Source of the DNA: Synechococcus sp. RSCCF101
Lineage (GTDB): Bacteria; Cyanobacteriota; Cyanobacteriia; PCC-6307; Cyanobiaceae
NCBI RefSeq assembly: GCF_008807075.1
Contig: NZ_CP035632.1
Coordinates: 1,240,001 to 1,304,000 of the forward strand
DNA length: 64,000 nt
Direction: 5' to 3'
This document shows positions 8,901-31,115 of the stretch, piece after piece. Below the pieces are notes generated by a model. That model was not told the origin of the DNA and ran no database searches. It saw only the letters and a program-made list of their open reading frames with translations. The position numbers were made by a program, and so were the translations under genes. The first letter of the stretch is position 1, and every line of letters starts with the position of its first letter.

Positions 8901-11900
8901 CGACTGCGGATCCAGGTTCTGCGTCAGATCCACGCTCACCTCAGACGTGTCGCCGTCCTGATCCGTCACCGTCTGCGTGAACACGATCCCGAACGTCTTT
9001 CCGCCTTCTCCGTCGCCTCCTTCTCCGTCCAGCGACACCACATCATCGTGTTCACCGGCGCTGTCGTCGCCAGCAACCGGATGCCAGATGTTGTTCTCCG
9101 TCTGCTCCAGGCGCACCGTCCCGTCAGCATTGCTGATCGTGAAATACACCTCATCGCCGATCACGCCCTTGATCACTCCGGCGTCACTCACCACCTGGAT
9201 CTCTTCCCCGCGGCTCACATCGCCTTCCACCGCATTCAGCGCATACAGGCCCGAACCCACCTCGATTCCATCCGCCAGCGTTCCGCTCGTTCCAGTCAGC
9301 GTCAGGCTGTACTCCACAGACCCAGGACCATCCGTCCCGAAGTCCACGTCATCTGAACCCTCAGGCGTCGTCTGATCCAGATCGCTGTTGAAATACGCCG
9401 TCAGATCCGCTTCCGAAATCCGATCCGCAACGTTGTCCTTCGGATCGGCCTGCGCTCCGGCGCTCTCATCCACCGTCAGCTGCACTCCCTCCAGGAATGA
9501 CTCCAGCTCGCCCGGATCGCTCGGCAGTTCAGCAAGCTTCGCTTCAGGACCGTCGTCGTTGAAGTTGAACGTGAACTCACCCGTCTCCGACTGCGGATCC
9601 AGGTTCTGCGTCAGATCCACGCTCACCTCAGACGTGTCGCCGTCCTGATCCGTCACCGTCTGCGTGAACACGATCCCGAACGTCTTTCCGCCTTCTCCGT
9701 CGCCTCCTTCTCCGTCCAGCGACACCACATCATCGTGTTCACCGGCGCTGTCGTCGCCAGCAACCGGATGCCAGATGTTGTTCTCCGTCTGCTCCAGGCG
9801 CACCGTCCCGTCAGCATTGCTGATCGTGAAATACACCTCATCGCCGATCACGCCCTTGATCACTCCGGCGTCACTCACCACCTGGATCTCTTCCCCGCGG
9901 CTCACATCGCCTTCCACCGCATTCAGCGCATACAGGCCCGAACCCACCTCGATTCCATCCGCCAGCGTTCCGCTCGCTCCAGTCAGCGTCAGGCTGTACT
10001 CCACAGACCCAGGACCATCCGTCCCGAAGTCCACGTCATCTGAACCCTCAGGCGTCGTCTGATCCAGATCGCTGTTGAAATACGCCGTCAGATCCGCTTC
10101 CGAAATCCGATCCGCAACGTTGTCCTTCGGATCGGCCTGCGCTCCGGCGCTCTCATCCACCGTCAGCTGCACTCCCTCCAGGAATGACTCCAGCTCGCCC
10201 GGATCGCTCGGCAGTTCAGCAAGCTTCGCTTCAGGACCGTCGTCGTTGAAGTTGAACGTGAACTCACCCGTCTCCGACTGCGGATCCAGGTTCTGCGTCA
10301 GATCCACGCTCACCTCAGACGTGTCGCCGTCCTGATCCGTCACCGTCTGCGTGAACACGATCCCGAACGTCTTTCCGCCTTCTCCGTCGCCTCCTTCTCC
10401 GTCCAGCGACACCACATCATCGTGTTCACCGGCGCTGTCGTCGCCAGCAACCGGATGCCAGATGTTGTTCTCCGTCTGCTCCAGGCGCACCGTCCCGTCA
10501 GCATTGCTGATCGTGAAATACACCTCATCGCCGATCACGCCCTTGATCACTCCGGCGTCACTCACCACCTGGATCTCTTCCCCGCGGCTCACATCGCCTT
10601 CCACCGCATTCAGCGCATACAGGCCCGAACCCACCTCGATTCCATCCGCCAGCGTTCCGCTCGTTCCAGTCAGCGTCAGGCTGTACTCCACAGACCCAGG
10701 ACCATCCGTCCCGAAGTCCACGTCATCTGAACCCTCAGGCGTCGTCTGATCCAGATCGCTGTTGAAATACGCCGTCAGATCCGCTTCCGAAATCCGATCC
10801 GCAACGTTGTCCTTCGGATCGGCCTGCGCTCCGGCGCTCTCATCCACCGTCAGCTGCACTCCCTCCAGGAATGACTCCAGCTCGCCCGGATCGCTCGGCA
10901 GTTCAGCAAGCTTCGCTTCAGGACCGTCGTCGCCAATCAGGAGAGCGGATTGGCCGATGTCGACGCTTTGATCAGCACTGTCGCCATCAGCATCAATCAC
11001 CGTCTTGGTGACGATCAACACATTATCTCCAGTAGTCTGGATGGCCTCATCGTCATCAGGATCTGTGGCATCGCCGTGCCAGATGTTCTGGGGGTTCGAC
11101 TGATCGCTGTAAGCGAAGGTCACCTCACCGGCATCATCCACAGTGATGTCGAAGACTTGCTCACCAGATCCGGCCACGACCCCAGAGACCGTGCCGTCAC
11201 CGTTGTCCACGAGGTCAATCGAAGCCCCTTGACCACCGGGGACGGACTCATCCAGAACAAACAGACCCGAAGGAGCTGTTCCTCCTTGAACGCTGACGCT
11301 GTAGAGCGTCTGGCCCGCAGCATCGGTCCCGTAGTCTTCTGCGCCGAAGGTGGTGGAGAGATCGAGTGTGGCCTCATAAGCACCACCCTCTGTCAGCGGA
11401 GACTCATCAAGAGCTGCCGTGAGCTGGAGCGTGCTGGCATCCGCGATGGAAGGGCCGTCATCACCGATCCGAAGGGCGGATTGGCCGATGTCAATGGACT
11501 GATCAACTGAGTCGCCATCAGCATCGGTCACGGTCTTGGTAACGATGAGAATGTTCTCACCGGATGTCTGAAGAGCCTCTTCATCGTCAGCATCCGTTGC
11601 ATCGGAATGCCAGATGTTCTGCGGGTTGACCTGATCGCTGTAGGCAAAGCTGACCTGACCGGTGGCATCGACGGAAAGTTCAAACACAGTCTGCCCGGTA
11701 CCTGAAACAAGACCAGAGACAGTTCCATCGCCGTTATCAACGAGATTGATGGCCGCACCTTTGCCATTGGGCTCAGTGGCATCAACAACGAACAACCCTG
11801 AGGCTGCAGCATCCCCCTGAACACTCACGGCATAGTCGATCTCGCCAGGCTGGTCATTGCCGAAGTCCTCAGCACCGAAGACATCAGACAGATCCAGGGT

Positions 11901-14900
11901 CGCCACATAGATGCCATCGCCGGCAGTCGGGAGTGGTGATTCATCGAGCGTGGCCGAATCATCCAGCGCACCAGCGTCGGCGATCGAGGGGCCATCATCC
12001 CGGAAACTGAAGGCCTCGCCGATCTCAACCGTTTCACTGTCGCTATCCCCATCGGCATCAGTGATCGTCGCCGTCAGCGTGACCAGGTCCGCTGACGCCA
12101 GGCCAGTCGAATCATCAGGATCCGTCGTATCGGGATGCACCACCGCGCGGTTCTGGGTCAGAGACACCTCGCCGTTCTCCGGATCGACGGTGATGCTGAA
12201 CACCACCTCACCGCTCGTCTCCGTGGTGCCCACCACGTCGCCGTTGACCAGATTCAGCACAACGGCCTCATCGGTCAGCGTGTCCGTCAGTCCACTCAGG
12301 GCATCCGCACCACTGATGCCCAGCTCGTAGCTGATCGCATCCGCATCCTCCTCACCGTCGCCATCACTGTCCTTGAAGTCATCCGCGCCAAAATCCGGAT
12401 TGGCGAACAGGCCTTCGAAGCTGGTCGGACCATCGGTGTCGGTAATGTCGCTGTCGTCCGTGGTCAGGGACGGAATCGCAGCATTGCTCAGCTCGATGCT
12501 CGGGCCATCGTCCTTGAAGATCACCTCACCGCCGATGTCCACCGCCTGACTGGCCTGATCACCATCTCCATCGGTGATCGTGATCCGCGCGCTCAACAGA
12601 CCATCCAGATCCACTGCATCATCCGGATCGCTGGGATCGGGGTGGTTCAAAGCCACGCCCTGCTCCACAGTCAGCACGCCCGTCGCAGCGTCGATCGACA
12701 CGCTGAAAGCCGCATCGGCATTCGGTCCGAACTGACCCTCGAATTCCGTGTCGCTGATCTGAACCAGCTCAATCGACTCACCTGTCGTGGTCTCCAGTGG
12801 CGTCGCACCCGACTGACCGGTCAGTTCCAGGCTGTACTGCGTTGCGTTCGCCGCTGCCGCTGCATCGGCTCCGAACAGAGTCGTGGCCGTCACGGCCGCA
12901 TCTGTGCTGCTCGCGCTGATCGGACCATCAGCAAAGGCCTCACCGGCATCAGTCTCGTCCAGTGTCACGCCAGTCCCGGGCGTTGCACCACTCACCTCCG
13001 GACCGTCATCCCGGAAACTGAAGGCCTCGCCGATCTCAACCGTTTCACTGTCGCTATCCCCATCGGCATCAGTGATCGTCGCCGTCAGCGTGACCAGGTC
13101 CGCTGACGCCAGGCCAGTCGAATCATCAGGATCCGTCGTATCGGGATGCACCACCGCGCGGTTCTGGGTCAGAGACACCTCGCCGTTCTCCGGATCGACG
13201 GTGATGCTGAACACCACCTCACCGCTCGTCTCCGTGGTGCCCACCACGTCGCCGTTGACCAGATTCAGCACAACGGCCTCATCGGTCAGCGTGTCCGTCA
13301 GTCCACTCAGGGCATCCGCACCACTGATGCCCAGCTCGTAGCTGATCGCATCCGCATCCTCCTCACCGTCGCCATCACTGTCCTTGAAGTCATCCGCGCC
13401 GAAGCTGGTATCAAACACACCCTCGAAGCTGGTCGGACCATCGGTGTCGGTGATGTCGCTGTCGTCCGTGGTCAGGGACGGAATCGCATCGTCGCCCAGC
13501 TCGATGCTCGGGCCATCGTCCTTGAAGATCACCTCACCGCCGATGTCCACCGCCTGACTGGCCTGATCACCATCTCCATCGGTGATCGTGATCCGCGCGC
13601 TCAACAGACCATCCAGATCCACTGCATCATCCGGATCGCTGGGATCGGGGTGGTTCAAAGCCACGCCCTGCTCCACAGTCAGCACGCCCGTCGCAGCGTC
13701 GATCGACACGCTGAAAGCCGCATCGGCATTCGGTCCGAACTGACCCTCGAATTCCGTGTCGCTGATCTGAACCAGCTCAATCGACTCACCTGTCGTGGTC
13801 TCCAGTGGCGTCACACCCGACTGACCGGTCAGTTCCAGGCTGTACTGCGTTGCGTTCGCCGCTGCCGCTGCATCGGCTCCGAACAGAGTCGTGGCCGTCA
13901 CGGCCGCATCTGTGCTGCTCGCGCTGATCGGACCATCAGCAAAGGCCTCACCGGCATCAGTCTCGTCCAGTGTCACGCCAGTCCCAGGCGTGGCACCACT
14001 CACCTGTGGGACGTCATCCACGATGTCAATCGAGAGCGTCTGAGTGGTGGTGTTGCCATTGACATCCGTCACCACATAGGTGAAAACATCCGCCTCGACA
14101 ACAAGGTTCTGACCGGGGATGTTGACTGGATCGGTGAAAGGTGAGGTGAGTGTGTAGGTGAACTCTCCTGTCTCCTCATCCAGTTCAAGTGTGCCGTAGG
14201 TGCCATCGACGGTGGTCACTCCGTTGCTGGATGTGCCGCCGGGCACGGAGAAGCTGACATCGGTCGAGCTATCGGCCTTGAGGGTGCCACGTGCCGTCTC
14301 ATCCGGAGAGGACGCATTGGAGCCGGACGGGAGAGCCTCTTCTTCAACCCGGGCAATCTCAGGAAAGGCGCTGATGCCGCTATCACTGACGTCGATGGTG
14401 AGCGTGGTTGTGCTCAGATCACCGTCTGCGTCCTCAATAGTGTATTGGAAGACGTCAAGCACACCATCCGTGATGGTGTTGGGGTTCGACTGGTAGGTGT
14501 AACTACCGTCGGCATTGAGAGTGAGTGTGCCGTACTCACCTTGAATCTGATTACCGACATTAGCTGAGGAGAGCTCCGACGTTGCACTGCCAACGGCCAC
14601 AACACCGCCTGCCGGGGAGGTGCTCACCGGCCCATCGGCACCAAACTCATCGGCCGCATCCCCAGGCGAGGCCGTGTCCCCACCCACAACATTGCCGGTG
14701 ACGACAGCACCCTCGCCCACGGAGTTCAGATCGGCGCGTGCCGTGGGCACGTCGTCAACGACGTCAATCGAGAGTGTGGTGGTGGTGGTGTTCCCGTTCT
14801 CATCGGTCACCACAACCTCAAACTGCTCCGCATCCGGGACGACGTTCTGGCCCGGTTGACCGGGTGCATCAGAAACCGGAGAGGTCAGCGTGTAAGTGTA

Positions 14901-16490
14901 TTCACCGGTTTCCTCATTGATCTCAAGCGTGCCATAGGTGCCCGGCACAGTGGTGACACCGTTTGACGATGTGCTGTTGGGGTCATTGCTGGAGAAGTCG
15001 ACATCGGTGGGGCTCCCAGCCACAAGCGTTCCTGTGGCGACATCACCGAGACTTGTGGGGTTGGATCCGGAGGGAAGGGCCTCTTCCTCAACCTCGGCCG
15101 TCTCATCGTCCGTGAGCAGCAGGGGAACCTCTTCACCGGCCTGCTCGGGGTCAGGAGTCTGCTCAGAGGATGCCGCAGCAACGTTGTCGATGTCGAAGTC
15201 GCCACCTCCAGCGCTGTCGATATCAGCCTGCTGGACTGTGTATTCAGTTTCAAAGCTCTGACTTGCACCAGGAGCCAAGCTGGCGATGGTCTGGTTGAGA
15301 CCCGTCAGCGGATCCGTCACCACGACATCGGTCAGGGTTTGGTTGCCCTCATTGGTCACAGTGATCGTGTAGCTGATCACCTGATCCGCAGCCGTGACCA
15401 CACCGTCCTGGCCATCGGGAATGGCCACGCCATCGATGGCGGTAGCCACCTTCGCGATGGCGAGATCCGGGTTCTGTTCGACAGGGACATTGGCCTCGTC
15501 GGTCTCCGGATCCGGCGTCTGATCGGTGACGACGGTCGCCACGTTCTCAAGGAAACCCGCGAGAAGGTCGTTGGGCTCGAGAGTGCCGTCGCTGTCGATG
15601 TCCTCCTGCGTGACGGTGTAGGTGCCGCTGAAGGTCCAGGTTTCGCCGATGTCAAGCACCCCATTGCTGTTGGTGTCGCCATCCGGCGCACCGAGATCAC
15701 CCAGCAGTGGATCGTTCACCACCACGTTGGTGAGAGCAGTGTCGCCGTCGTTCGTGACGGTGATCAGATACTCGATCTGATCACCAGCACCGGTCACAGA
15801 GCCGTCATCGACCACGGTTCCGTCAGCGCGGATCACCGAAACAACCGACTTGTCGATTCCCACCTGAGGGGTGGTGATCGGGGGTGGGGTTGGGGTTGTT
15901 GTGGTGGGAGGCGGGGTCGGAGTGGTGGGAGGCGGTGGTGTGATCCCGGGGAACTCAGGTGCCGGAGGCAGCGGGATGATGGTTTCCGGTGCCTCCGCCT
16001 CCGGGGCCGGCGTGGGCTCCGGCGTGACCGCCTCGGGCTCTGCAGGAGGTTCGGGCTCCGGTGGCGTCTCCGCTTCCGGTGTCGCAGCGGCCGCCTCCAC
16101 CTCTGGGAGAGCATCGCCATCCGGAGCACCCAGCTCGTCCGCCAGCACCGGTTGATCCTGAAGCGGCTGATCAACGGGCGCCTCGCCCAGCAGTCCCCCC
16201 GTGCCACCGCCTGCCTCGGTGACTTCGGGGTTGCCGCCGGTGGGCGTGGTGACGGGGGTGGTGGCGCCGACCTGACCCGGCGAGGGAATCTCCGTTTCCT
16301 CAACGAAGCTGTCGGGAGTCACCGGGGTGGGGGGAGTGGCTCCCTCGGGGTTGTCCAGCGAACCCGCGCTCTGGTGCTCCGGCACGGACACTCCCTGTTG
16401 GCCTTCCTTCCGGAGCTCCTCGTTGTGCTCGGCCTCGAGCTCGGGATCCAGGCCTTGCTGCAGGAAATCAGCGGGGTTGGAGGAAGCCAT
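1..16490 (-). CDS. Giant repeat adhesin-like protein, N-terminal part (C-terminus beyond left edge)
   Basis: The frame is open from ATG at 16490 to the left edge (about 5,496 residues) with no stop in the parts translated. Residues 1-207 are acidic and end in a Pro/Thr-rich linker. Residues about 208-430 hold two DUF11-like modules (GDQIEYLITVTNDGDT; VISYTITVTNEGN). Residues about 465-830 hold three VCBS/cadherin-like modules (YGTLEINEETGEYTYTLTS). The rest are T1SS-143/DUF5801-type repeats with calcium-ligand-like turns (TITDSDGD, TVTDQDGD) and a recurrent F-x-DDGP junction. Such proteins are exported by type I secretion through a C-terminal signal, which here lies outside the window. No Sec signal peptide is seen. 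Likely roles are surface attachment, a surface layer, motility (as for SwmB of marine Synechococcus) or grazer defence; the choice among them is inference. The secretion genes at 25.7-31.1 kb are plausible partners. Confidence 0.9.
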   Translation of the reverse strand, partial: MASSNPADFLQQGLDPELEAEHNEELRKEGQQGVSVPEHQSAGSLDNPEGATPPTPVTPDSFVEETEIPSPGQVGATTPVTTPTGGNPEVTEAGGGTGGLLGEAPVDQPLQDQPVLADELGAPDGDALPEVEAAAATPEAETPPEPEPPAEPEAVTPEPTPAPEAEAPETIIPLPPAPEFPGITPPPPTTPTPPPTTTTPTPPPITTPQVGIDKSVVSVIRADGTVVDDGSVTGAGDQIEYLITVTNDGDTALTNVVVNDPLLGDLGAPDGDTNSNGVLDIGETWTFSGTYTVTQEDIDSDGTLEPNDLLAGFLENVATVVTDQTPDPETDEANVPVEQNPDLAIAKVATAIDGVAIPDGQDGVVTAADQVISYTITVTNEGNQTLTDVVVTDPLTGLNQTIASLAPGASQSFETEYTVQQADIDSAGGGDFDIDNVAAASSEQTPDPEQAGEEVPLLLTDDETAEVEEEALPSGSNPTSLGDVATGTLVAGSPTDVDFSSNDPNSTSSNGVTTVPGTYGTLEINEETGEYTYTLTSPVSDAPGQPGQNVVPDAEQFEVVVTDENGNTTTTTLSIDVVDDVPTARADLNSVGEGAVVTGNVVGGDTASPGDAADEFGADGPVSTSPAGGVVAVGSATSELSSANVGNQIQGEYGTLTLNADGSYTYQSNPNTITDGVLDVFQYTIEDADGDLSTTTLTIDVSDSGISAFPEIARVEEEALPSGSNASSPDETARGTLKADSSTDVSFSVPGGTSSNGVTTVDGTYGTLELDEETGEFTYTLTSPFTDPVNIPGQNLVVEADVFTYVVTDVNGNTTTQTLSIDIVDDVPQVSGATPGTGVTLDETDAGEAFADGPISASSTDAAVTATTLFGADAAAAANATQYSLELTGQSGVTPLETTTGESIELVQISDTEFEGQFGPNADAAFSVSIDAATGVLTVEQGVALNHPDPSDPDDAVDLDGLLSARITITDGDGDQASQAVDIGGEVIFKDDGPSIELGDDAIPSLTTDDSDITDTDGPTSFEGVFDTSFGADDFKDSDGDGEEDADAISYELGISGADALSGLTDTLTDEAVVLNLVNGDVVGTTETSGEVVFSITVDPENGEVSLTQNRAVVHPDTTDPDDSTGLASADLVTLTATITDADGDSDSETVEIGEAFSFRDDGPEVSGATPGTGVTLDETDAGEAFADGPISASSTDAAVTATTLFGADAAAAANATQYSLELTGQSGATPLETTTGESIELVQISDTEFEGQFGPNADAAFSVSIDAATGVLTVEQGVALNHPDPSDPDDAVDLDGLLSARITITDGDGDQASQAVDIGGEVIFKDDGPSIELSNAAIPSLTTDDSDITDTDGPTSFEGLFANPDFGADDFKDSDGDGEEDADAISYELGISGADALSGLTDTLTDEAVVLNLVNGDVVGTTETSGEVVFSITVDPENGEVSLTQNRAVVHPDTTDPDDSTGLASADLVTLTATITDADGDSDSETVEIGEAFSFRDDGPSIADAGALDDSATLDESPLPTAGDGIYVATLDLSDVFGAEDFGNDQPGEIDYAVSVQGDAAASGLFVVDATEPNGKGAAINLVDNGDGTVSGLVSGTGQTVFELSVDATGQVSFAYSDQVNPQNIWHSDATDADDEEALQTSGENILIVTKTVTDADGDSVDQSIDIGQSALRIGDDGPSIADASTLQLTAALDESPLTEGGAYEATLDLSTTFGAEDYGTDAAGQTLYSVSVQGGTAPSGLFVLDESVPGGQGASIDLVDNGDGTVSGVVAGSGEQVFDITVDDAGEVTFAYSDQSNPQNIWHGDATDPDDDEAIQTTGDNVLIVTKTVIDADGDSADQSVDIGQSALLIGDDGPEAKLAELPSDPGELESFLEGVQLTVDESAGAQADPKDNVADRISEADLTAYFNSDLDQTTPEGSDDVDFGTDGPGSVEYSLTLTGTSGTLADGIEVGSGLYALNAVEGDVSRGEEIQVVSDAGVIKGVIGDEVYFTISNADGTVRLEQTENNIWHPVAGDDSAGEHDDVVSLDGEGGDGEGGKTFGIVFTQTVTDQDGDTSEVSVDLTQNLDPQSETGEFTFNFNDDGPEAKLAELPSDPGELESFLEGVQLTVDESAGAQADPKDNVADRISEADLTAYFNSDLDQTTPEGSDDVDFGTDGPGSVEYSLTLTGASGTLADGIEVGSGLYALNAVEGDVSRGEEIQVVSDAGVIKGVIGDEVYFTISNADGTVRLEQTENNIWHPVAGDDSAGEHDDVVSLDGEGGDGEGGKTFGIVFTQTVTDQDGDTSEVSVDLTQNLDPQSETGEFTFNFNDDGPEAKLAELPSDPGELESFLEGVQLTVDESAGAQADPKDNVADRISEADLTAYFNSDLDQTTPEGSDDVDFGTDGPGSVEYSLTLTGTSGTLADGIEVGSGLYALNAVEGDVSRGEEIQVVSDAGVIKGVIGDEVYFTISNADGTVRLEQTENNIWHPVAGDDSAGEHDDVVSLDGEGGDGEGGKTFGIVFTQTVTDQDGDTSEVSVDLTQNLDPQSETGEFTFNFNDDGPEAKLAELPSDPGELESFLEGVQLTVDESAGAQADPKDNVADRISEADLTAYFNSDLDQTTPEGSDDVDFGTDGPGSVEYSLTLTGTSGTLADGIEVGSGLYALNAVEGDVSRGEEIQVVSDAGVIKGVIGDEVYFTISNADGTVRLEQTENNIWHPVAGDDSAGEHDDVVSLDGEGGDGEGGKTFGIVFTQTVTDQDGDTSEVSVDLTQNLDPQSETGEFTFNFNDDGPEAKLAELPSDPGELESFLEGVQLTVDESAGAQADPKDNVADRISEADLTAYFNSDLDQTTPEGSDDVDFGTDGPGSVEYSLTLTGASGTLADGIEVGSGLYALNAVEGDVSRGEEIQVVSDAGVIKGVIGDEVYFTISNADGTVRLEQTENNIWHPVAGDDSAGEHDDVVSLDGEGGDGEGGKTFGIVFTQTVTDQDGDTSEVSVDLTQNLDPQSETGEFTFNFNDDGPEAKLAELPSDPGELESFLEGVQLTVDESAGAQADPKDNVADRISEADLTAYFNSDLDQTTPEGSDDVDFGTDGPGSVEYSLTLTGASGTLADGIEVGSGLYALNAVEGDVSRGEEIQVVSDAGVIKGVIGDEVYFTISNADGTVRLEQTENNIWHPVAGDDSAGEHDDVVSLDGEGGDGEGGKTFGIVFTQTVTDQDGDTSEVSVDLTQNLDPQSETGEFTFNFNDDGPEAKLAELPSDPGELESFLEGVQLTVDESAGAQADPKDNVADRISEADLTAYFNSDLDQTTPEGSDDVDFGTDGPGSVEYSLTLTGTSGTLADGIEVGSGLYALNAVEGDVSRGEEIQVVSDAGVIKGVIGDEVYFTISNADGTVRLEQTENNIWHPVAGDDSAGEHDDVVSLDGEGGDGEGGKTFGIVFTQTVTDQDGDTSEVSVDLTQNLDPQSETGEFTFNFNDDGPSVEIGDIDISGLGVTTSDAAAEPGTGNFPGGFPASDSSDYELAFENAVTPDYGTDGPAQLDADDFELSLTGTPNASGLIDSGLTEEGSPDAPIYLFVSADGQTVYGSTDAAFDVSAPGASSFTVEVTDSDKGTVTLTQNAALTHDRVDTDPSDPNAVFPSDQVDLAGQVALSATVTITDSDGDVVTEDLTTQIGGNLKFADDGPAVDDVAAIDISDLGVTTSDAAADAGNFDGGFPASDSSDYEVAFEDAVIESYGADDDAGASKDADDFELSLTGTPNASGLIDSGLTEEGSPDAPIYLFVSADGQTVYGSTDAAFDVSAPGASSFTVEVTDSDKGTVTLTQNAALTHDRVDTDPSDPNAVFPSDQVDLAGQVALSATVTITDSDGDVVTEDLTTQIGGNLKFADDGPAVDDVAAIDISDLGVTTSDAAADAGNFDGGFPASDSSDYEVAFEDAVIESYGADDDAGASKDADDFELSLTGTPNASGLIDSGLTEEGSPDAPIYLFVSADGQTVYGSTDAAFDVSAPGASSFTVEVTDSDKGTVTLTQNAALTHDRVDTDPSDPNAVFPSDQVDLAGQVALSATVTITDSDGDVVTEDLTTQIGGNLKFADDGPAVDDVAAIDISDLGVTTSDAAADAGNFDGGFPASDSSDYEVAFEDAVIESYGADDDAGASKDADDFELSLTGTPNASGLIDSGLTEEGSPDAPIYLFVSADGQTVYGSTDAAFDVSAPGASSFTVEVTDSDKGTVTLTQNAALTHDRVDTDPSDPNAVFPSDQVDLAGQVALSATVTITDSDGDVVTEDLTTQIGGNLKFADDGPAVDDVAAIDISDLGVTTSDAAADAGNFDGGFPASDSSDYEVAFEDAVIESYGADDDAGASKDADDFELSLTGTPNASGLIDSGLTEEGSPDAPIYLFVSADGQTVYGSTDAAFDVSAPGASSFTVEVTDSDKGTVTLTQNAALTHDRVDTDPSDPNAVFPSDQVDLAGQVALSATVTITDSDGDVVTEDLTTQIGGNLKFADDGPAVDDVAAIDISDLGVTTSDAAADAGNFDGGFPASDSSDYEVAFEDAVIESYGADDDAGASKDADDFELSLTGTPNASGLIDSGLTEEGSPDAPIYLFVSADGQTVYGSTDAAFDVSAPGASSFTVEVTDSDKGTVTLTQNAALTHDRVDTDPSDPNAVFPSDQVDLAGQVALSATVTITDSDGDVVTEDLTTQIGGNLKFADDGPAVDDVAAIDISDLGVTTSDAAADAGNFDGGFPASDSSDYEVAFEDAVIESYGADDDAGASKDADDFELSLTGTPNASGLIDSGLTEEGSPDAPIYLFVSADGQTVYGSTDAAFDVSAPGASSFTVEVTDSDKGTVTLTQNAALTHDRVDTDPSDPNAVFPSDQVDLAGQVALSATVTITDSDGDVVTEDLTTQIGGNLKFADDGPAVDDVAAIDISDLGVTTSDAAADAGNFDGGFPASDSSDYEVAFEDAVIESYGADDDAGASKDADDFELSLTGTPNASGLIDSGLTEEGSPDAPIYLFVSADGQTVYGSTDAAFDVSAPGASSFTVEVTDSDKGTVTLTQNAALTHDRVDTDPSDPNAVFPSDQVDLAGQVALSATVTITDSDGDVVTEDLTTQIGGNLKFADDGPAVDDVAAIDISDLGVTTSDAAADAGNFDGGFPASDSSDYEVAFEDAVIESYGADDDAGASKDADDFELSLTGTPNASGLIDSGLTEEGSPDAPIYLFVSADGQTVYGSTDAAFDVSAPGASSFTVEVTDSDKGTVTLTQNAALTHDRVDTDPSDPNAVFPSDQVDLAGQVALSATVTITDSDGDVVTEDLTTQIGGNLKFADDGPAVDDVAAIDISDLGVTTSDAAADAGNFDGGFPASDSSDYEVAFEDAVIESYGADDDAGASKDADDFELSLTGTPNASGLIDSGLTEEGSPDAPIYLFVSADGQTVYGSTDAAFDVSAPGASSFTVEVTDSDKGTVTLTQNAALTHDRVDTDPSDPNAVFPSDQVDLAGQVALSATVTITDSDGDVVTEDLTT
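6112..10920 (-). repeat. Seven tandem 687-bp (229-aa) repeats
   Basis: The motif ggaccgtcgtcg begins at 6112 and recurs every 687 bases up to 10921, where the following sequence changes, giving exactly seven copies. The unit keeps frame and encodes 229 residues with landmarks VQLTVDESAGAQ, SVEYSLTLTG, VYFTISNADGTVRLEQ, NIWHPVAGDD, TQTVTDQDGDTSEV and FNFNDDGP. The only variation I saw is one Thr/Ala codon (ACG/GCG in the LTG-T/A-SGTL motif). In protein order the copies read T, A, T, T, A, A, T. This repeat family is clearly distinct in sequence from the 205-residue one. Confidence 0.95.
10937..11998 (-). repeat. Two diverged 531-bp (177-aa) repeats
   Basis: The motif gcggattggccgatgt occurs at about 10945 and again at 11476, 531 bases apart, and the flanking translations align (landmarks IWHGDATDPDDDEA in one copy, a matching IWHSDATD segment in the other, and GQSAL before the DDGP junction). 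The copies differ at many positions, unlike the neighbouring arrays, so this pair is older or escapes homogenisation. Both encode T1SS-143/DUF5801-type modules within the adhesin. Confidence 0.8.
12001..14010 (-). repeat. Two near-identical blocks of about 1011 bp (337 aa)
   Basis: The motif cggaaactgaaggcctcgcc occurs at 12001 and 13012. The two blocks are nearly identical, including silent positions, apart from a short variable patch (about 12385-12415 against 13397-13425) where one copy has one residue fewer, and a few point changes. Each block carries two different T1SS-143/DUF5801 modules, one ending FRDDGP and one ending FKDDGPSIEL, so it is a higher-order duplication of a two-module unit. 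Confidence 0.88.
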
Positions 16491-20371: not shown

Positions 20372-21211
20372 ATGCGCACGCTGCGCTGGGGAGCCTGCAC
20401 CCATGTGATGGGTGTGATGAATCTCACTCCCGACTCCTTCAGTGATGGCGGAGCGCTGGCGAGCATCGCCGATGCCTGCCGCACCGCAGGCCGCCAGTTG
20501 CAGCAGGGGGCGGCGGTTCTGGACCTCGGTGGCCAGAGCACCCGACCGGGAGCCGTGGAGGTCACAGCCGCGGAGGAGGCCACCAGGCTGTTGCCGGCGC
20601 TTCGGGCCGTGCGGACGCGCTTTCCCGAGGCCATTCTCTCGGTCGACACCTTCCATGCGGCGGTGGCCGAGGCAGCGCTTGACGTCGGGGCCGATTGGAT
20701 CAACGACGTCACGGGGGGAAAGCGTGACCCCGCCATTCTGGATTGCGTGCGGACGAATGGATGCCCCTATGTCCTGATGCACCACAGAGCACCCAGCAGC
20801 GTGATGAATCAGCATGCCCACTACACCGACGTGGTTCGGGAGGTTCACGAGGAATTGCTTTTTGCCACCGAACGAGTGATCAAAGCGGGGGTGAAACAGA
20901 ATCAGATCATCTGGGATCCCGGTATCGGCTTCGCCAAAACGACAGACCAGTCGCTTGCCCTGATGCGCCATCTCTCCACACTGAAACGGGAGGGATTTCC
21001 ACTCTTGGTTGGACCGTCGCGCAAGCGGTTCATCGGAGACGTGCTCAATCAACCCCGGCCAAAAGCGCGAATCTGGGGCACGGCGGCCGCCGTATGCCTC
21101 GCCGTGGCTGAGGGCGCTGACATTGTGCGCGTCCATGACGTTGGAGCCATGGTGGCTACGGTGAAAATGGCAGAGGCCTTGTGGCCCCGAGCCCCTCAGA
21201 CAGCCGCGTAA
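20372..21211 (+). CDS. folP: Dihydropteroate synthase
   Basis: A 279-residue enzyme of folate synthesis that joins p-aminobenzoate to the pterin diphosphate. Signature motifs are present: MGVMNLTPDSFSDGG, LDLGGQSTRPGA, SVDTFHAAVAEAAL, WINDVTGG, DPGIGFAKTTDQSLALM, LLVGPSRKRFIGD and the C-terminal RVHDVGA. The start ATG at 20372 lies 10 bases after the tpiA stop, so the two probably form one transcript. Its end overlaps the 3' end of the convergent gene at 21196 by 16 bases. Base composition falls in its second half (from about 20750) compared with its first. Confidence 0.92.
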   Translation: MRTLRWGACTHVMGVMNLTPDSFSDGGALASIADACRTAGRQLQQGAAVLDLGGQSTRPGAVEVTAAEEATRLLPALRAVRTRFPEAILSVDTFHAAVAEAALDVGADWINDVTGGKRDPAILDCVRTNGCPYVLMHHRAPSSVMNQHAHYTDVVREVHEELLFATERVIKAGVKQNQIIWDPGIGFAKTTDQSLALMRHLSTLKREGFPLLVGPSRKRFIGDVLNQPRPKARIWGTAAAVCLAVAEGADIVRVHDVGAMVATVKMAEALWPRAPQTAA

Positions 21212-21876
21212 GTGAGGTCGCCTTCCTCGGAGAGACGGGCTGTGGAAAAGAAGTCGGCGGTCTTCTCGCTGATGGCTCCGATCCTGACAAGGCACTCTCC
21301 CAGACGACCAGACGTCTGCCTCTGCTCCTTGAGGGCCTGCTGCAGTTGCTCAGGAGTAATCATTCCCACCTCGACCAGCTTCTCTCCCAGGCGGAGAGAG
21401 GAAAAGGATTTGGAGTCAAAGTGGTCTGGGTTCAGAAGCAGATCAAGCAGCGCAGGAGGAACTTCCATGTTGAGTCGCAAGAACTCCCCGAAGCGTTGCG
21501 TGGCCGAAAAAGGTCTGTACTGCTCAAGGAGATCGTCCAGTTGAGCACTATCGATGGCACCAACGTTGACCAACTTGCTTCCCAGAGCCTGGCGTGAGAA
21601 CGGAAGCTCGGTTTCGGTGGAGTTGGCATGGCTTTGGAGATCTCCCTCAATCAGATCAGGCCCCTTGAACTTCTCCTGAACGAAGGGATCGTCGCTGAGA
21701 AAGCGGAAGAGATCAGCTGGATTGAGGTTGAGGGAACCAAACTCCTGCTCCAACAACTCTTCGATGAAACAAGCCTCGGTCACCGGGCCAACGACCTGAA
21801 AGGGCAGCTGTCGTGATGTGCCGTTCGCGATCAGCTCGATCTGAGCATGGTCGGAGCGAAGACGCAGACGGAACAT
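21196..21876 (-). CDS. Protein with two MshEN-like modules (possible c-di-GMP sensor)
   Basis: A 226-residue soluble protein. After an N-terminal domain of about 90 residues it has two copies of the pattern seen in GspE/PilB/MshE N-terminal domains: LGSKLVNVGAIDSAQLDDLL...RFGEFLRLNMEVPPALLDLL, and RLGEKLVEVGMITPEQLQQAL...RLGECLVRIGAIS. MshEN domains can bind cyclic di-GMP through paired RLGxxLxxx...L motifs; whether these copies do is inference. There is no ATPase domain. It lies downstream of the secretion genes on the same strand but is now separated by the nested insertion sequences. It is convergent with folP. Confidence 0.7.
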   Translation of the reverse strand: MFRLRLRSDHAQIELIANGTSRQLPFQVVGPVTEACFIEELLEQEFGSLNLNPADLFRFLSDDPFVQEKFKGPDLIEGDLQSHANSTETELPFSRQALGSKLVNVGAIDSAQLDDLLEQYRPFSATQRFGEFLRLNMEVPPALLDLLLNPDHFDSKSFSSLRLGEKLVEVGMITPEQLQQALKEQRQTSGRLGECLVRIGAISEKTADFFSTARLSEEGDLTYAAV

Positions 21877-25034: not shown

Positions 25035-25514
25035 TCAAACCTCAGGGAAGCCAGGGGCGTCGTCAAGGGGCTCAAAGGCCAATGGATCAGACTGGGTGGT
25101 CAGAGGATCATCGGCACCGGAGAGCTGCTCGAGGCCCAAAAGCACACTCAGGCCGTCATCAGCACCGCCGCTGGGATCATCGGCCTCGGCGGCTTCAAGA
25201 ATGCCGCGATGCTCAAGACTGTGTCGGATGGAGCCGAGAACGTCGTTCTGGAGCTGGGCATGCTCCTCAGGGGAGAGTCCGTGTGTATCAATGAAATCGC
25301 TGATGGCCTGGTCAAGTTCGTAGGCAATCTCGAGGCGCAGAGGGGCGTCGGAAGGCTCCAGCTGCTCGACGGAGCTCATGAACGACTGCGCCAGCCCATC
25401 AATGGACGTTGGACCGATATCCACACTCGGAGCCTCCAACTTGGACAGGCTGTCGACCAGCTGACCGATGTCGGAGAAGAGGGTCGGCCCGTTCTCAGGA
25501 GGGGTTGGTTCCAT
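25035..25514 (-). CDS. Small acidic protein of unknown function, linked to the secretion genes
   Basis: A 159-residue, strongly acidic protein with no signal peptide or membrane segment. The middle part (RLEIAYELDQAISDFIDTHG, then LSPEEHAQLQNDVLGSIRHS) looks helical; the C-terminal third is low-complexity and rich in Asp, Gly and Ser. I do not recognise a family. It lies 186 bases downstream of the HlyD-like gene on the same strand and is the last gene before the IS insertion. A role with the secreted protein (chaperone-like or regulatory) is only a guess from position. Confidence 0.6.
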   Translation of the reverse strand: MEPTPPENGPTLFSDIGQLVDSLSKLEAPSVDIGPTSIDGLAQSFMSSVEQLEPSDAPLRLEIAYELDQAISDFIDTHGLSPEEHAQLQNDVLGSIRHSLEHRGILEAAEADDPSGGADDGLSVLLGLEQLSGADDPLTTQSDPLAFEPLDDAPGFPEV

Positions 25515-25700: not shown

Positions 25701-27212
25701 TCAGCGCTGCTCACGAAAGGCCGAATCGAGCGTGCGGGTGAAGGGCTGGAACAGGTAGCGGAGCACGGAGCGTTTCGGTCCCTGGAAGTCGGCAACAACA
25801 GGCATGCCGACCTGAATCGGCAACGCGCCTTTCTCACCGCAGCTGGTTTTGCTGTTGTCTCTGGACACAGCTTGGCAGTTCAGAGCGATCTGGGTTGTGT
25901 AGAAATAGGCTCTTGTGTCAGGGTCTTGCACTGTGGATGGAGAAATGCTCTCAACGGTTCCCCAGACCGTGCCGTAGATGTTGGAGTCATACGGTTCCAC
26001 CTTCACTTCAACGGGCTGACCCTCGTAAATGAAGCCGATATCGGTCGCGCGAACACGGGCCTGGACCACTTTGGTGGTGTCATTCGGGACCACCTGAAGG
26101 ACAGTGGCGCCCGGTGCGACCACGGAGTCAGGATTGGGAAAGCGGAGGTCATTGATCACACCCGTAACCGGGGCCTTGATCCGTGTTCGCTCCAGCTGGA
26201 TCTCGACACGATTGATATCGTCGGCAAGAACCTCCTGCTCGTTGATGAGGGCTGCTTTCTCTGAGGTCTGCTCAAACTGAAGGCCCGATTTCAGGCCCTG
26301 CAGCTCGGCTCTAGCCTCCTGAAGCAATTTGACGGCTTCAGCACGGGTCCCTTGAAGCTCAGCCATCTTCGTGAGGGACGAGGCAACATTCTGCTCAGCA
26401 TCGAGGAGATTGAGCTCAGAGGCAGCTCCCTGGTCAACAAGATCCTTGTACATACCCTTTTCCTGGCGGTAAAGCTGTTGCTCGTAGCGGAACTGTCGAA
26501 TTTGATCATCGATCCCACGAATTTCAGCCTCTTTCTGCGCAATCTGTGCTTCTAGCGAGGAAATCCGGTCGCGCCGGTTTTGCTGTCGGACAGCCAGAAG
26601 TTCCAACTGAGCTTGGGCCACAGGGTCATCGTCACCCGCTTCAAAGGCAGTTTCGCCATCAATCGCGGCCTGAAGCTGCCGCTGCTGAAGGGTGAGGTTG
26701 GCGAGCTTCTGCTGCATGGCCCGATATTCGGTCTCGAGGAGGTTGGGCCTAAGGAGGAGGAGCTCCTGGCCTTCAACGACTGTTTCACCATCCTGAACCA
26801 GCACCTCATCAACGATGCCACCCTCAAGGTGCTGAACAACGGACACTTCCCCCTCGGGGATCACCTCACCTGAGGCGTAGGCCACTTGCGTGATCGGGGT
26901 CAACGCGGCCCAGGGAAGGAAGATCAGGAGGGCGGCACCGGCTGCATAGACGCTGTAACGCAAGAAGCGATTATCGGTTTGCTCCTCAAGCTCCAGCGCC
27001 TGACTGAGGCGCTGTCGACCAACCAGTGCGATGGTGTCCCTGTTGTCAATCCCGGGAAGCTTGGAGAGAACACCCTCCGAGATGGGAAGAGCCAGGGAGT
27101 CTGACTTCGGAGAGGAGCTGGAGGGGAAGAGTCGGTCATCGCAGGCGTGGGTCGTGAGACAGATCAGGTCTGAGGAGGTGGAGGGATGGTGCAAGGAAAA
27201 TGCCGGATGCAA
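25701..27212 (-). CDS. HlyD/LapC-like membrane fusion protein of type I secretion
   Basis: Periplasmic adaptor that links an inner-membrane ABC exporter to a TolC-type outer-membrane channel. It has a cytoplasmic N-terminus, one membrane helix (about 86-106, AAGALLIFLPWAAL-like), a biotinyl-lipoyl half (GEVSVVQHLEGGIVDEVLVQ), a long coiled coil and the second lipoyl/beta-barrel part (RIKAPVTGVINDL, GQPVEVKVEPYD). Length is normal. Two Cys near the C-terminus (LNCQ, TSCGE) are unusual. The only in-frame start is TTG at 27212. An ATG at 27139 begins MTDSSP in another frame and would join this protein if the CCCC run (minus strand, 27123-27126) had one more C, so the true N-terminus is doubtful. 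It follows the two ABC genes. Confidence 0.88.
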   Translation of the reverse strand: MHPAFSLHHPSTSSDLICLTTHACDDRLFPSSSSPKSDSLALPISEGVLSKLPGIDNRDTIALVGRQRLSQALELEEQTDNRFLRYSVYAAGAALLIFLPWAALTPITQVAYASGEVIPEGEVSVVQHLEGGIVDEVLVQDGETVVEGQELLLLRPNLLETEYRAMQQKLANLTLQQRQLQAAIDGETAFEAGDDDPVAQAQLELLAVRQQNRRDRISSLEAQIAQKEAEIRGIDDQIRQFRYEQQLYRQEKGMYKDLVDQGAASELNLLDAEQNVASSLTKMAELQGTRAEAVKLLQEARAELQGLKSGLQFEQTSEKAALINEQEVLADDINRVEIQLERTRIKAPVTGVINDLRFPNPDSVVAPGATVLQVVPNDTTKVVQARVRATDIGFIYEGQPVEVKVEPYDSNIYGTVWGTVESISPSTVQDPDTRAYFYTTQIALNCQAVSRDNSKTSCGEKGALPIQVGMPVVADFQGPKRSVLRYLFQPFTRTLDSAFREQR

Positions 27213-27216
27213 TCAA

Positions 27217-29385
27217 CTAGCGGCTTGGCGCGGTAGGTCGATTCTGCATCTTCTGTTTGAGCTCATCAGGGGTACCCATGAAGGCTGTGACACCCTTGTC
27301 GAGGATGCAGATCTGATCACACATCTGAAGCAGGGCCATGTTGTCAGTGGCAAGGATGATGGATCGATCCTGGCCACTTCCAATACAACGGCGAAGATCA
27401 GGCAGGTAAGCAATCACAGACTGAAACTGTGCCGGTGTGAGGCCTCGTGTGATGTCATCGATCAGGAGGATCGGGGCATCTTTGATCACGGCTTGGGCAA
27501 AGGAGATTAGCTTGCGGACACCATTGGGAAGAAAATAGACAGTGCCACTCTCAAGCGGCGTATGGATTCCTTCAGGAAGGCGGTCGATGATCTGCATGAT
27601 GCCGAGGCGAGTGCAGACCTCCCGAACCATGCTTTCGGTGGCATCAGGGTTGACCATCGTGAGGTGGCTCCAGATCGTGCCAGGGAAGAGCTGCGGATCC
27701 TTGAGCAACAGAGAGATGTTTCTCTGAATGTCCTCAAGGCTGAACTGGCGATAATCAATGCCATCAAAAAACAAGCTGCCACTGGCGAGGCTGTTGACCT
27801 GGTCGATGACTCGTAGGGTCGTGGTCTTGCCGGAGCCACTGGCTCCAGTGAGGGCAAGCATGGAGCCTGGATTGACGGACAGGCTCACTCGAGTGATGGC
27901 CAATTGATTCTCGGCGCCCAGTCGGCAGGCCGCTGAATCAAGGATGATGCTGCCGCGGAACCGGCCCAGAGCTGTTCCCGAATCAACGCGGGGCGGTGTG
28001 CGAAGCTTGAAATACTGACTGAGCTGTTGGTACTGATTCCGCATCGAGCTGTAGCGGAGCAGTGCATTCATCAGTTGTTGGAACGGGCTGAAGACACGCC
28101 AAACAAAGAACATGGCAGCAATCAGATTGCCCAGAGCCACAGGGCCTGATGGCTGCTGGAAGGCGACCCACGCACCGAAGGACAACGTCAGAACTCCAGC
28201 CAACTGAGCGGACATGCTGGCAATGATCTGAAGCTGCCCAACCTGTCGGTTGATGTCACGCCCACTGCTGGTGCTCTGGGCCGAGAGTCCTCGCAGACGT
28301 TGCAACCACACCCATTCGAGATTGGCCAGTTTCACCTCGATGAAGCGATTGGCCAGCTCTTCCTGTGTTTGCAGAATGGTTGATCCTGTGGTGATCTGGA
28401 GCTGGGCCGCACCGGTGTACAGGCGAGCAAGCGTCAGCACAACCACAGCACTGACCAGCATCATCACGAGTGGTACCAGCACCAGCCAGCCACCAATGAA
28501 AGCGATGGCCAGGAGGTAGATGATGACAAATGGGAAGTCCAGGCATGCCAGTGCCAACGGCCCCTGCACATAAGCCAGAAGACTGTCAAGGTTTCGGAGA
28601 CGATTGTTCAGGCCCGAGCGGCCGAGAATTTCGACCTGCTTGTAATCGAGGCCGAACAGCTTCTCAAGAATGCTGACACCGATGATCGCTTCAAGCCGAC
28701 CGGTGATTTTCGAGAGTTCACCGGCGCGCCACATCCTCAGCGACCAGTCGAGCGCAAAGAGAACCATCACGCCCAGGAAGAGCCACAGGGCGGACGAGAC
28801 GCTGGAACCGGGTATGGAGATGCTGTAGATGGCCCGCAGGTAAAACGGGAGAGTTAAGGCCAGGAGTGCGAGAACAAAGCTGGTGAAATACAGCAGACGA
28901 ATTCGCTTTGTGAAGCGATAGAAGAGCTGCTGCAGCAGTGAGATCCGCTCCGTGGTGGCTCGCTCCTGCAGCAGAGCCAGTTCCCCACCGGCTTGAACAG
29001 CTTCAAGATCGGCACGACCGTAGGCATTGGCTGCATAAAGCTGGCCGTTGCGGGCCTGAGACACCACGTAGGGTGTGTTATCAGGACTCACATAAAGGCC
29101 CGGTAGGAGCTGTGGGCTGATCTGGGACCATGACTCAACCCTCTCCAAACGGCTGCTGTATCCGAGTCGAAGTAATAAATTGCGTGCATCAACCAGATCC
29201 ATCTCCCTGGGGTCTCGCCGAATCAGCTCGTAGAGCTCTTCCGGTCGCCCCGTCCACATCAACTGCTGCAGGAGAAGACGCACACAGAACGCCATGGGCG
29301 CCTGAGGACTGAGCGTGAGATCCCTGAGGAGCATCTGGCTGGGCGGCCTCTCAGCGGGCGCAGGGCGGTCAGCAGTACTGGTCAT
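27217..29385 (-). CDS. Type I secretion ABC permease-ATPase with altered ATPase motifs (LapB-like)
   Basis: A 722-residue protein: an N-terminal C39-peptidase-like domain (about 1-150) without an evident catalytic Cys/His pair, a membrane domain (about 155-440), then the nucleotide-binding domain. Walker A is intact (GASGSGKT, 514-521), but the signature is FLPNG (618-622) instead of LSGGQ, the residue after the Walker B Asp is Asp644 instead of Glu (LLIDD), and the H-loop reads ATDN (679-682) with no His. It overlaps the preceding ABC gene by four bases (ATGA), so the two are translationally coupled and probably form a heterodimer. It most likely exports a large repeat protein such as the one at 1-16490. 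Confidence 0.85.
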   Translation of the reverse strand: MTSTADRPAPAERPPSQMLLRDLTLSPQAPMAFCVRLLLQQLMWTGRPEELYELIRRDPREMDLVDARNLLLRLGYSSRLERVESWSQISPQLLPGLYVSPDNTPYVVSQARNGQLYAANAYGRADLEAVQAGGELALLQERATTERISLLQQLFYRFTKRIRLLYFTSFVLALLALTLPFYLRAIYSISIPGSSVSSALWLFLGVMVLFALDWSLRMWRAGELSKITGRLEAIIGVSILEKLFGLDYKQVEILGRSGLNNRLRNLDSLLAYVQGPLALACLDFPFVIIYLLAIAFIGGWLVLVPLVMMLVSAVVVLTLARLYTGAAQLQITTGSTILQTQEELANRFIEVKLANLEWVWLQRLRGLSAQSTSSGRDINRQVGQLQIIASMSAQLAGVLTLSFGAWVAFQQPSGPVALGNLIAAMFFVWRVFSPFQQLMNALLRYSSMRNQYQQLSQYFKLRTPPRVDSGTALGRFRGSIILDSAACRLGAENQLAITRVSLSVNPGSMLALTGASGSGKTTTLRVIDQVNSLASGSLFFDGIDYRQFSLEDIQRNISLLLKDPQLFPGTIWSHLTMVNPDATESMVREVCTRLGIMQIIDRLPEGIHTPLESGTVYFLPNGVRKLISFAQAVIKDAPILLIDDITRGLTPAQFQSVIAYLPDLRRCIGSGQDRSIILATDNMALLQMCDQICILDKGVTAFMGTPDELKQKMQNRPTAPSR

Positions 29386-31115
29386 GCGAAAGGTGAAAGA
29401 GCCTGGTCAAGAAGGGGCAGGTCGGCGCTGTGGTCAGACAACTTGCTCAGAACATTGCCGGAGCCAGCGAGGAGAACAGTCGTTCGCCCTCGACAACGTT
29501 TGAGGATCTTTTCCAGCCCGACAATGAATTCCTTACCGAATGAGCTGTTGTAAAGGTTCAGGAGAAGAACATCAGGGCCCGTGGTCAGAGCACGGATGAT
29601 CTGAAACAGACCTTCCACGTCCGAAGACAGACCACTCGGGACGCTCGAGCCCATTGTCGTTGCGTAGCCTTGAGGAAGTGACCTCACTTTGCTATCGAGG
29701 CCTGTGAGAAACGACCAGAAGAGTGCGTGGCGTCGGTAAACAGCTGGCTGAAAGCTGGTGATGTTCTGGAGAAGAGACCCCTCGAAAAAGTCAAGCGAGG
29801 GATCGGCGTAGGCAATGCTCTGACGAAGTGAGTAGCGATTGAACTCATGGATCGGACGCCCTCCGATCTGAAGGTCATCGACAGTCTCGATCTGGAGAAG
29901 CCCCATGAAGAGGTGCCGAACGTCCGTCCCATAATTGCTGTCGCGCAGAAGAAGACATCCTCCCGTTGGAACAGTTGCGATCTGGCGCGATCCCATCGAC
30001 ACAGCGAACACATCCCCAATCTCAAACTTGATGGAGCCGCCCTCATCTTCCGTGGGAGTATTCATGAGGTGCTCGTACTCTGAGCGAGAATGGGTGAAGC
30101 GGCGGTAACTATTCCAAAGGGACATGGCTTGCTGCCATGGCGACAGCACCTTCCCCGCCAGGAGAAGGCATGCCGCCAAGGCCCCAACAAGCAGCCTGTC
30201 ATTGATGACGAGAATGCCTCCCCAGGTCACGGTGGCAGCCAAGGTGATCTGGCTCATCAAAGACGAAAACGACTGATACTTGGCTGCAATCGTGTTGCTG
30301 CGGATGCGAACCCGAGACAGGTCTTCCTGACGCTCCTCATTGCCAACCAGAAACTTTCGCCCAAGTCCGTTGGATTTGATCTGGCTGATTGCTCGGACGA
30401 TTTGTCCGTGATAACCAAGCCGATCCTGCTCGAGAAGATCTCGTTGCTTGGCTGCGCTCTCAAGCTGTCGAGCAAACGAGAGAGCCCTCAGCAGATAAAC
30501 AGCGATTGCGATCAAACCGATGAAACCGATGGTGCCACCAATAAGAAAAAGCACCAGGACGAAAAACAGGGAAAAGACAAGATCAATCGATGTCGTCAAG
30601 GCCTGAATGGAGCTTTCATCGCGAAGAATGCTGATCGTGCTGAGCCGATCAGCGTGGGTTGATGGAGACGCTCTGAGATACTCACTCAAACGCAGTTGAG
30701 TGAAGTGGCTCAGCGCGTTCATGCGGCGCGTATGCTCGATATGGGCGCTGTCGTTACCGGTTAACGACAGGCGAAAGATCTTCATCACCCCCGACAGCAG
30801 CAGCAGCAGCAGCACCAACAACGTCAGAACAGCCAGACTGGGGAGAGATCCGGTTGGCAGAACCTGCGTGTAGACGAGATTGATATACAGCGGACTTGCT
30901 AGTTCGAGCAGGTTGATGACGATCGAGGCTGTGATGATCGGACCAATTTGGTATCGACTCCAGTCAGAATCAATGACCGACTGAAAGAAGGGGTGCTGAA
31001 AGAATTCAGCAAGAAGGTCAATATTCTCTTCATTGACGCGTCGAAACTGCCCCAGCGGATCCCGCCACCAGCTTCTAAGGCCTTGGCTGTCGTCGGCCCT
31101 GGCTGCTTCGGTCAC
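29382..31115 (-). CDS. ABC exporter subunit with a dead ATPase domain
   Basis: A 577-residue partner with membrane segments from about 57 to 330 and a C-terminal domain that follows the ABC ATPase fold in outline. The ATP-site motifs are gone: the Walker A position reads LRDSNYGTDVRH (390-401, no GKS/T), the Q-loop Gln is absent (AYADPS), the signature is VPSGLSSD, and Walker B is VLLLNL with no acidic pair. The frame is open and of full length, so this is conserved degeneration rather than a recent pseudogene. It probably pairs with the 722-residue subunit in the inner membrane. It is the first gene of the secretion unit. Confidence 0.82.
   Translation of the reverse strand: MTEAARADDSQGLRSWWRDPLGQFRRVNEENIDLLAEFFQHPFFQSVIDSDWSRYQIGPIITASIVINLLELASPLYINLVYTQVLPTGSLPSLAVLTLLVLLLLLLSGVMKIFRLSLTGNDSAHIEHTRRMNALSHFTQLRLSEYLRASPSTHADRLSTISILRDESSIQALTTSIDLVFSLFFVLVLFLIGGTIGFIGLIAIAVYLLRALSFARQLESAAKQRDLLEQDRLGYHGQIVRAISQIKSNGLGRKFLVGNEERQEDLSRVRIRSNTIAAKYQSFSSLMSQITLAATVTWGGILVINDRLLVGALAACLLLAGKVLSPWQQAMSLWNSYRRFTHSRSEYEHLMNTPTEDEGGSIKFEIGDVFAVSMGSRQIATVPTGGCLLLRDSNYGTDVRHLFMGLLQIETVDDLQIGGRPIHEFNRYSLRQSIAYADPSLDFFEGSLLQNITSFQPAVYRRHALFWSFLTGLDSKVRSLPQGYATTMGSSVPSGLSSDVEGLFQIIRALTTGPDVLLLNLYNSSFGKEFIVGLEKILKRCRGRTTVLLAGSGNVLSKLSDHSADLPLLDQALSPFA

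Follow-up and report, generated by a model that had tools for sequence, protein, structure and literature searches.

We describe a pair of ATP-binding cassette (ABC) subunits, here called a and b, in which the residues for ATP hydrolysis are lost from both possible ATPase sites and in which these losses are conserved across a clade of picocyanobacteria. The pair lies in a 64,000-nucleotide stretch of Synechococcus sp. RSCCF101 (NZ_CP035632.1, 1,240,001-1,304,000; at 1.240-1.304 Mb of the single contig that makes up the 2.98-Mb genome), which we call the window and whose positions are used below. Three tandem genes on the minus strand (31115-25701) encode the a subunit, the b subunit, and an HlyD-family adaptor. 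Given their predicted exporter fold and the adaptor encoded with them, a and b are best described as a putative inner-membrane heterodimeric ABC exporter of a type I secretion system (T1SS). The losses may reflect secretion that is gated by ATP and driven by another force.

The a subunit (577 aa; 29382..31115, minus strand) comprises an ABC exporter transmembrane domain (TMD; ABC_membrane, PF00664) and a degenerate nucleotide-binding domain (NBD), with no N-terminal C39-like domain. The b subunit (722 aa; 27217..29385, minus strand) is HlyB-like, with an N-terminal C39-like domain, a TMD, and an NBD. Both open reading frames (ORFs) lie where a preliminary description, made from the letters of this DNA, had placed them, and they share 4 bases, an overlap that is identical in 21 of 24 relatives. 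The best NCBIfam matches of both subunits are T1SS permease/ATPase models (LssB, PrtD, and HlyB). Against TIGR01846, TIGR03375, and TIGR01842, with cut-offs of 726, 693, and 510 bits, b scores 148, 271, and 180 bits and a scores 111, 195, and 130 bits, so that neither reaches the curated cut-off for the HlyB, LssB, or PrtD subfamilies. AlphaFold2 models of both subunits have the ABC-exporter fold (pLDDT 85.8 for a and 78.8 for b). The best match of the a model is HlyB of the HlyB/D complex (8dck; Z 26.2, root-mean-square deviation 4.1, 521 residues); the b model matches the same HlyB with Z 29.3 and a deviation of 7.2 over 659 residues, covering b residues 29-716 and thus the C39-like domain. 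The third gene encodes a T1SS periplasmic adaptor of 503 aa (25701..27212, minus strand; TIGR01843, 293 bits vs a cut-off of 208.65). In relatives, the HlyD gene directly follows the b gene, and the order a-b-HlyD is kept. TolC-type outer-membrane proteins (OEP, PF02321) are encoded at three loci of the genome, any of which may serve the a/b pair.

Catalytic motifs were read by alignment to the intact ABC exporter of the same window (17608-19347). Counts refer to the 25 picocyanobacterial pairs of the clade, window pair included (clade A); those for b refer to 24, as the frameshifted b gene of one relative was omitted. In a, the Walker A/P-loop position reads DSNYGTDVRH (29913..29942, minus strand), and none of the 25 subunits has the Walker A lysine. 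The signature position is GLSSD for LSGGQ (29619..29633, minus strand), with serine kept in 24 of 25 and aspartate at the second glycine in all. Walker B is VLLLNL (29553..29570, minus strand; LLLNL for LLLDE), and the catalytic glutamate is leucine in 25/25. The D-loop aspartate (glycine in 25/25) and the H-loop histidine are likewise found in none, and the window subunit has also lost the Q-loop glutamine. The preliminary description had denied the 577-aa subunit a Walker A lysine, a proper signature, and an acidic Walker B pair. The first two claims agree with the alignment; the third is right for the glutamate, but the Walker B aspartate is present in 24 of 25 pairs and is asparagine in this strain only.

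The b subunit differs in retaining an intact Walker A (GASGSGKT, 27823..27846, minus strand), whose lysine is present in 24/24. Its Walker B is ILLIDD (27454..27471, minus strand), with aspartate replacing the catalytic glutamate in 24/24; Walker A is thus invariant, as are both acids of Walker B. The signature is degenerate (FLPNG for LSGGQ, 27520..27534, minus strand; serine to proline in 23/24), and the H-loop position (27343..27345, minus strand; ATDN) holds aspartate in place of histidine (D in 20, E in 2, S in 2, and H in none of the 24). The D-loop aspartate is absent from all 24, and the Q-loop glutamine of the window subunit is lysine. The preliminary description had read the intact Walker A, FLPNG, the aspartate for glutamate, and the missing H-loop histidine from the 722-aa subunit, and the alignment extends this pattern to the clade. 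In some orthologues, a glutamine (MPQS) stands next to the Q-loop position rather than at it, and the 722-aa b subunit has no histidine from Walker B to its C-terminus. Since that glutamine is unconserved and no histidine follows Walker B, an intact motif hidden by misalignment is ruled out.

The earlier claim that neither composite site is complete therefore applies to the clade as a whole: a complete consensus nucleotide-binding site was sought in both composite sites and found in none of the 25 pairs. No composite site combines the Walker A lysine, glutamate, histidine, and signature that a competent T1SS ATPase would have in at least one of them, and the residues present rule out a full ATPase site by any pairing of subunits, whether a:a, b:b, or a:b. 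Residue by residue, the site formed by the b Walker A and B motifs and the a signature looks like one that would bind ATP without catalysis, and the other composite site is predicted to be unable to bind ATP.

The comparison with picocyanobacterial orthologues that the preliminary description proposed finds the same substitutions conserved; in place of intact orthologues, or of a pairing without homologues, there are 25 degenerate pairs in the clade. The named orthologues come mainly from Cyanobium, Synechococcus, and Vulcanococcus. In nine pairs of relatives, the NBD has a ratio of nonsynonymous to synonymous substitution rates (dN/dS) of 0.025-0.21 in a and 0.03-0.11 in b, and purifying selection acts on the TMD as well as on the NBD. 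Conservation of the losses throughout the clade is far beyond what chance or strain-specific decay would produce. Decay of a normal exporter in this strain could point to one private change, the aspartate-to-asparagine replacement in Walker B of a. It is refuted by the orthologues and dN/dS and is scarcely credible: the 24 other pairs share the losses with a subunits that are 42-60% identical, dN/dS is low, and the ORFs are full length. Elsewhere, a b gene split by a frameshift (G120, L069 8306-10435) and an hlyD gene broken by TAG (G068, L060 8971-10383) each represent single-strain decay or a sequencing error. A picocyanobacterial operon of this type (a 42% and b 49% identical to the window subunits) also occurs on contig L101, which is binned as a Flavobacteriales metagenome-assembled genome and is probably mis-binned.

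The same genome carries a second a/b/HlyD set at 811-817 kb (L027, G000:C1:806000-822000), which belongs to a second clade, clade B. Here the Walker A lysine is found in none of seven a subunits and none of six b subunits (threonine in four, arginine in two); one further b subunit has serine at this position. The catalytic glutamate is absent from both subunits. With the Walker A lysine gone from both subunits, clade B has departed further from the canonical motifs than the window pair has. The clade B set of this genome adjoins genes for two further proteins, one MlaD-like (325 aa) and one a membrane protein (232 aa), and an MlaD-like gene lies near another clade B locus as well (L086 12389-13237). 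These neighbors were considered and rejected as an ExbB/TolQ/MotA-like partner that would couple export to the proton motive force (PMF), as the membrane protein matches no Pfam family and the other is MlaD-like.

Relatives of the wider family are found in Proteobacteria and include pairs that keep most catalytic residues as well as intermediates in Cellvibrionaceae. In Rhodospirillaceae and their kin, both subunits have Walker A and the glutamate, the histidine is present in 5/5 b and 3/5 a subunits, and both signatures are altered. In Cellvibrionaceae and one Bradyrhizobium, a is dead, and b has Walker A and the histidine, mostly with aspartate for glutamate. At three loci (L130-132), the glutamate of a is asparagine and its histidine is aspartate, and b retains both residues. 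In several Gilvimarinus-family genomes (L130-L134; e.g., L130 8781-16519), genes for a response regulator and large membrane proteins follow the a/b/HlyD operon. In a quick tree, the a subunits of every group cluster together, as do the b subunits in a separate clade (SH-aLRT support 99), which implies that the pair is ancient. Since the Rhodospirillaceae pairs keep Walker A, the glutamate, and mostly the histidine, catalysis would have been lost inside an old family linked to HlyD and giant adhesins. As judged from these motifs, catalytic residues have been lost to differing degrees within one family.

These features suggest a mechanism. Together with a TolC-type protein encoded elsewhere, a, b, and HlyD would form a T1SS-like exporter of a giant cell-surface adhesin. 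The site made of the b Walker A and B motifs and the a signature probably binds Mg-ATP, because Walker A, the Walker B aspartate, and the signature serine are kept; binding would close the NBD dimer and switch the TMDs. Hydrolysis would be absent or very slow, because b lacks the glutamate, the H-loop histidine, and the Q-loop glutamine and a lacks the D-loop aspartate; at most, it might serve to reset the gate, roughly one time for each substrate molecule. The chain would be moved by another force, which may be the membrane potential or PMF, the charge of the very acidic chain, or folding on the outside. In TmrAB, ATP binding alone drives one translocation stroke and hydrolysis resets the transporter (PMC7205462), and what drives T1SS is treated as an open question (PMC5018854). 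We see the balance as even on whether the clade A pair is such a T1SS gate, controlled by ATP, with essentially no hydrolysis and with another force as its drive.

Several points weigh against it. In Escherichia coli HlyB, the H662A mutation blocks hydrolysis and leaves ATP binding intact, and HlyA fails to reach the surface (PMC5018854); a natural exporter without the H-loop histidine is thus without tested precedent. Sites with aspartate for glutamate can retain very slow hydrolysis (PMC7756269). The A-loop aromatic residue of b is apparently lost in the alignment. At the loci examined, no neighboring gene was recognised as a PMF-coupled partner of the SiiAB kind, and both ATP binding and export by the a/b pair are predictions. 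A broader proposal, which we find rather doubtful, is that the whole family gave up hydrolysis, such that ATP only gates in clade A and clade B exports without any use of ATP by its ABC transporter. With the Walker A lysine in neither subunit, clade B would need no ATP in its ABC subunits; its drive would be the membrane potential, or the folding and charge of the chain.

We prefer the ATP-gated, non-hydrolysing gate to slow hydrolysis, slow hydrolysis to a borrowed ATPase, and a borrowed ATPase to a role outside export. Slow hydrolysis would make the pair a real ATPase, in which the Walker A/B site of b, with aspartate for glutamate, works at a low rate and would need to hydrolyse ATP only once or a few times for each giant substrate molecule. 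The invariance of the b Walker A and of both Walker B acids (24/24) argues for this, as does the slow hydrolysis that degenerate aspartate sites keep (PMC7756269). HlyA-type T1SS move about 16 aa per second (PMC5018854), a rate at which export of all 11,376 aa would last about 12 minutes, so that few cycles might suffice. However, the H-loop histidine, the Q-loop glutamine, the D-loop aspartate, and the canonical signature are gone as well, clade B cannot use this mode with no Walker A lysine in either subunit, and one or two ATP per large substrate are deemed unlikely (PMC5018854). We consider slow hydrolysis unlikely on balance. A role outside export, with the pair anchoring the giant adhesin, regulating it, or serving as its assembly platform while another system exports it, is improbable enough to stand last. 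Pseudoenzymes typically keep their fold and lose catalytic residues, and the a/b pair has this pattern. Purifying selection on both TMD and NBD, the constant operon with HlyD and adhesin, and the fact that the sole other strong HlyD-T1SS set in the genome is the second degenerate pair all argue against such a role.

If the pair were instead a channel or scaffold, a canonical ABC exporter encoded elsewhere in the genome could hydrolyse ATP on its behalf. HlyB and HlyD assemble as three ABC dimers on six HlyD (PMC11026475), which would leave room for a borrowed engine, and the genome does encode three canonical exporters of ~1000 aa. Each of these, however, adjoins an HlyD-like gene of its own, and the a/b operon is seen without any intact ATPase. 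Neither the operon nor the 18 kb around it showed a dedicated intact ABC gene, and the nearby canonical ABC genes (17608-19347 and orthologues) were rejected as partners because they are separate exporters. Exporters of the ~1000-aa class are also found in many genomes that lack the a/b pair and are thus not a dedicated partner. Overall, the borrowing of an ATPase is quite unlikely. In a search of 400 picocyanobacterial genomes with the T1SS HlyD model, which we count in favor of the gate reading, the strongest matches (E 6.5e-77 or better) co-locate with degenerate pairs by contig and coordinates, one of them (G235 C50) being confirmed by sequence as clade B, and the weaker matches, where contigs allowed checking, mostly adjoin ~1000-aa ABC exporters. 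Of the five such exporters found there, four are canonical in every motif and the fifth is without the Walker A lysine. An exporter of this class at L182 212-3226 (G136) has the Walker A GQSGSGTST, with threonine for lysine, and is canonical otherwise. In the window genome, only two HlyD genes score over the cut-off, and each accompanies a degenerate pair.

The preliminary description had linked the pair to a giant protein, and the pair is indeed associated with HlyD and a giant repeat protein. The giant gene has 11,376 codons, starting at window position 16490 and ending at G000:C1:1222360; the window holds the part for the N-terminal 5,496 aa (3..16490, minus strand). T1SS-143 repeats (TIGR03660) and VCBS domains of the protein score over the cut-off. 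The protein also has many DUF5801 repeats and a stretch of RTX nonapeptides (PF00353) in its C-terminal part. Between window positions 5934 and 10749, ORFs recur every 687 bases (229 codons) inside the gene, marking near-identical long tandem repeats, which suggests a recent expansion. In relatives, the gene following hlyD encodes a large acidic repeat protein; at one locus (L064 10473-11309, G194), a gene for a GlcNAc-type glycosyltransferase (PF11397) stands between the two. A GG-rich N-terminal element is common to the giant protein and to proteins encoded after orthologous operons. It lies at residue ~90-125 in 9 of 16 candidate substrates, the 11,376-aa protein included, and is nearly absent elsewhere in those chains; with only these nine, it was rejected as a universal substrate signal. 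We regard the 11,376-aa protein as the likely substrate of the a/b pair.

In the window, the operon stands apart from the giant gene and, relative to folP, is reversed as compared with relatives. Two transposase genes of the rve and DDE_Tnp_1-DUF772 types (22740-23861 and 23901-24842, plus strand) lie between the operon and folP. A 226-aa protein with a weak DUF4388 match (21196..21876, minus strand; 42-56% identity in 23 loci) is encoded by a conserved neighbor upstream of the operon in relatives; here insertion sequences intervene. About six relatives have small ORFs close to HlyD or the adhesin to which a small acidic protein of 159 aa (25035..25514, minus strand) is weakly similar (E 1e-7 to 1e-5).

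Among known systems, the pair resembles E. coli HlyB/HlyD in its subunit folds, the C39-like domain of b, the TIGR01843 adaptor, the TolC-type proteins in the genome, and a large substrate with T1SS-143, VCBS, and RTX elements. It differs from the HlyB homodimer in its two different ABC subunits, its lack of a complete ATPase site, and scores far below the curated cut-offs. Like TM287/288, TmrAB, BmrCD, and TAP, it has unlike half-transporters, with aspartate for glutamate and an altered signature at one composite site; in those exporters the second site is canonical, whereas here it lacks Walker A, the glutamate, and the histidine. The locus has the two different ABC subunits and HlyD-type adaptor of the Vibrio MARTX T1SS (RtxB/RtxE, RtxD, and a TolC-like protein; PMC3034196), as well as a very large substrate, a likeness of architecture only. 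The order a-b-HlyD differs from rtxBDE, and the substrate here is a VCBS/T1SS-143 adhesin-like protein. The Salmonella SPI-4 T1SS (SiiF/SiiD/SiiC and the SiiAB proton channel) also has a giant adhesin as substrate, and the proton-conducting accessory SiiAB shows that PMF can act in a giant-adhesin T1SS (PMC12607715). SiiF, by contrast, is a transporter that hydrolyses ATP, and SiiAB-like genes were not recognised beside the operons examined here. In the HlyA system, the secretion rate is independent of substrate size and of external Ca2+ (PMC5018854), and the HlyB NBD turns over ATP at about 250 nmol Pi per mg per min (PMC11026475).

It is well established that heterodimeric exporters can have one degenerate site, and the reviewed ones retain one consensus site (PMC7756269). 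A literature search of partial coverage, aimed at exporters in which both sites are degenerate, added nothing to that review, and in the literature so covered we found no precedent for a clade-conserved exporter pair without a consensus site. The a/b pair would be such an ABC exporter. Of the preliminary interpretation, the incomplete sites, their conservation, and the setting with HlyD and a giant protein stand, and the suggested modes (slow, ATP-gated, or helped by another ATPase) are candidates. The finding bears on how picocyanobacteria deliver giant proteins to their surface; the protein described here is about as large as SwmB from Synechococcus WH8102 (10,791 aa; PMC4949707). Since members of the family range from those with most catalytic residues to those with no Walker A lysine, the family offers a direct test of which steps of secretion depend on ATP binding, on hydrolysis, or on neither, and losses that are conserved under selection may show that secretion can proceed with little or no ATP hydrolysis.

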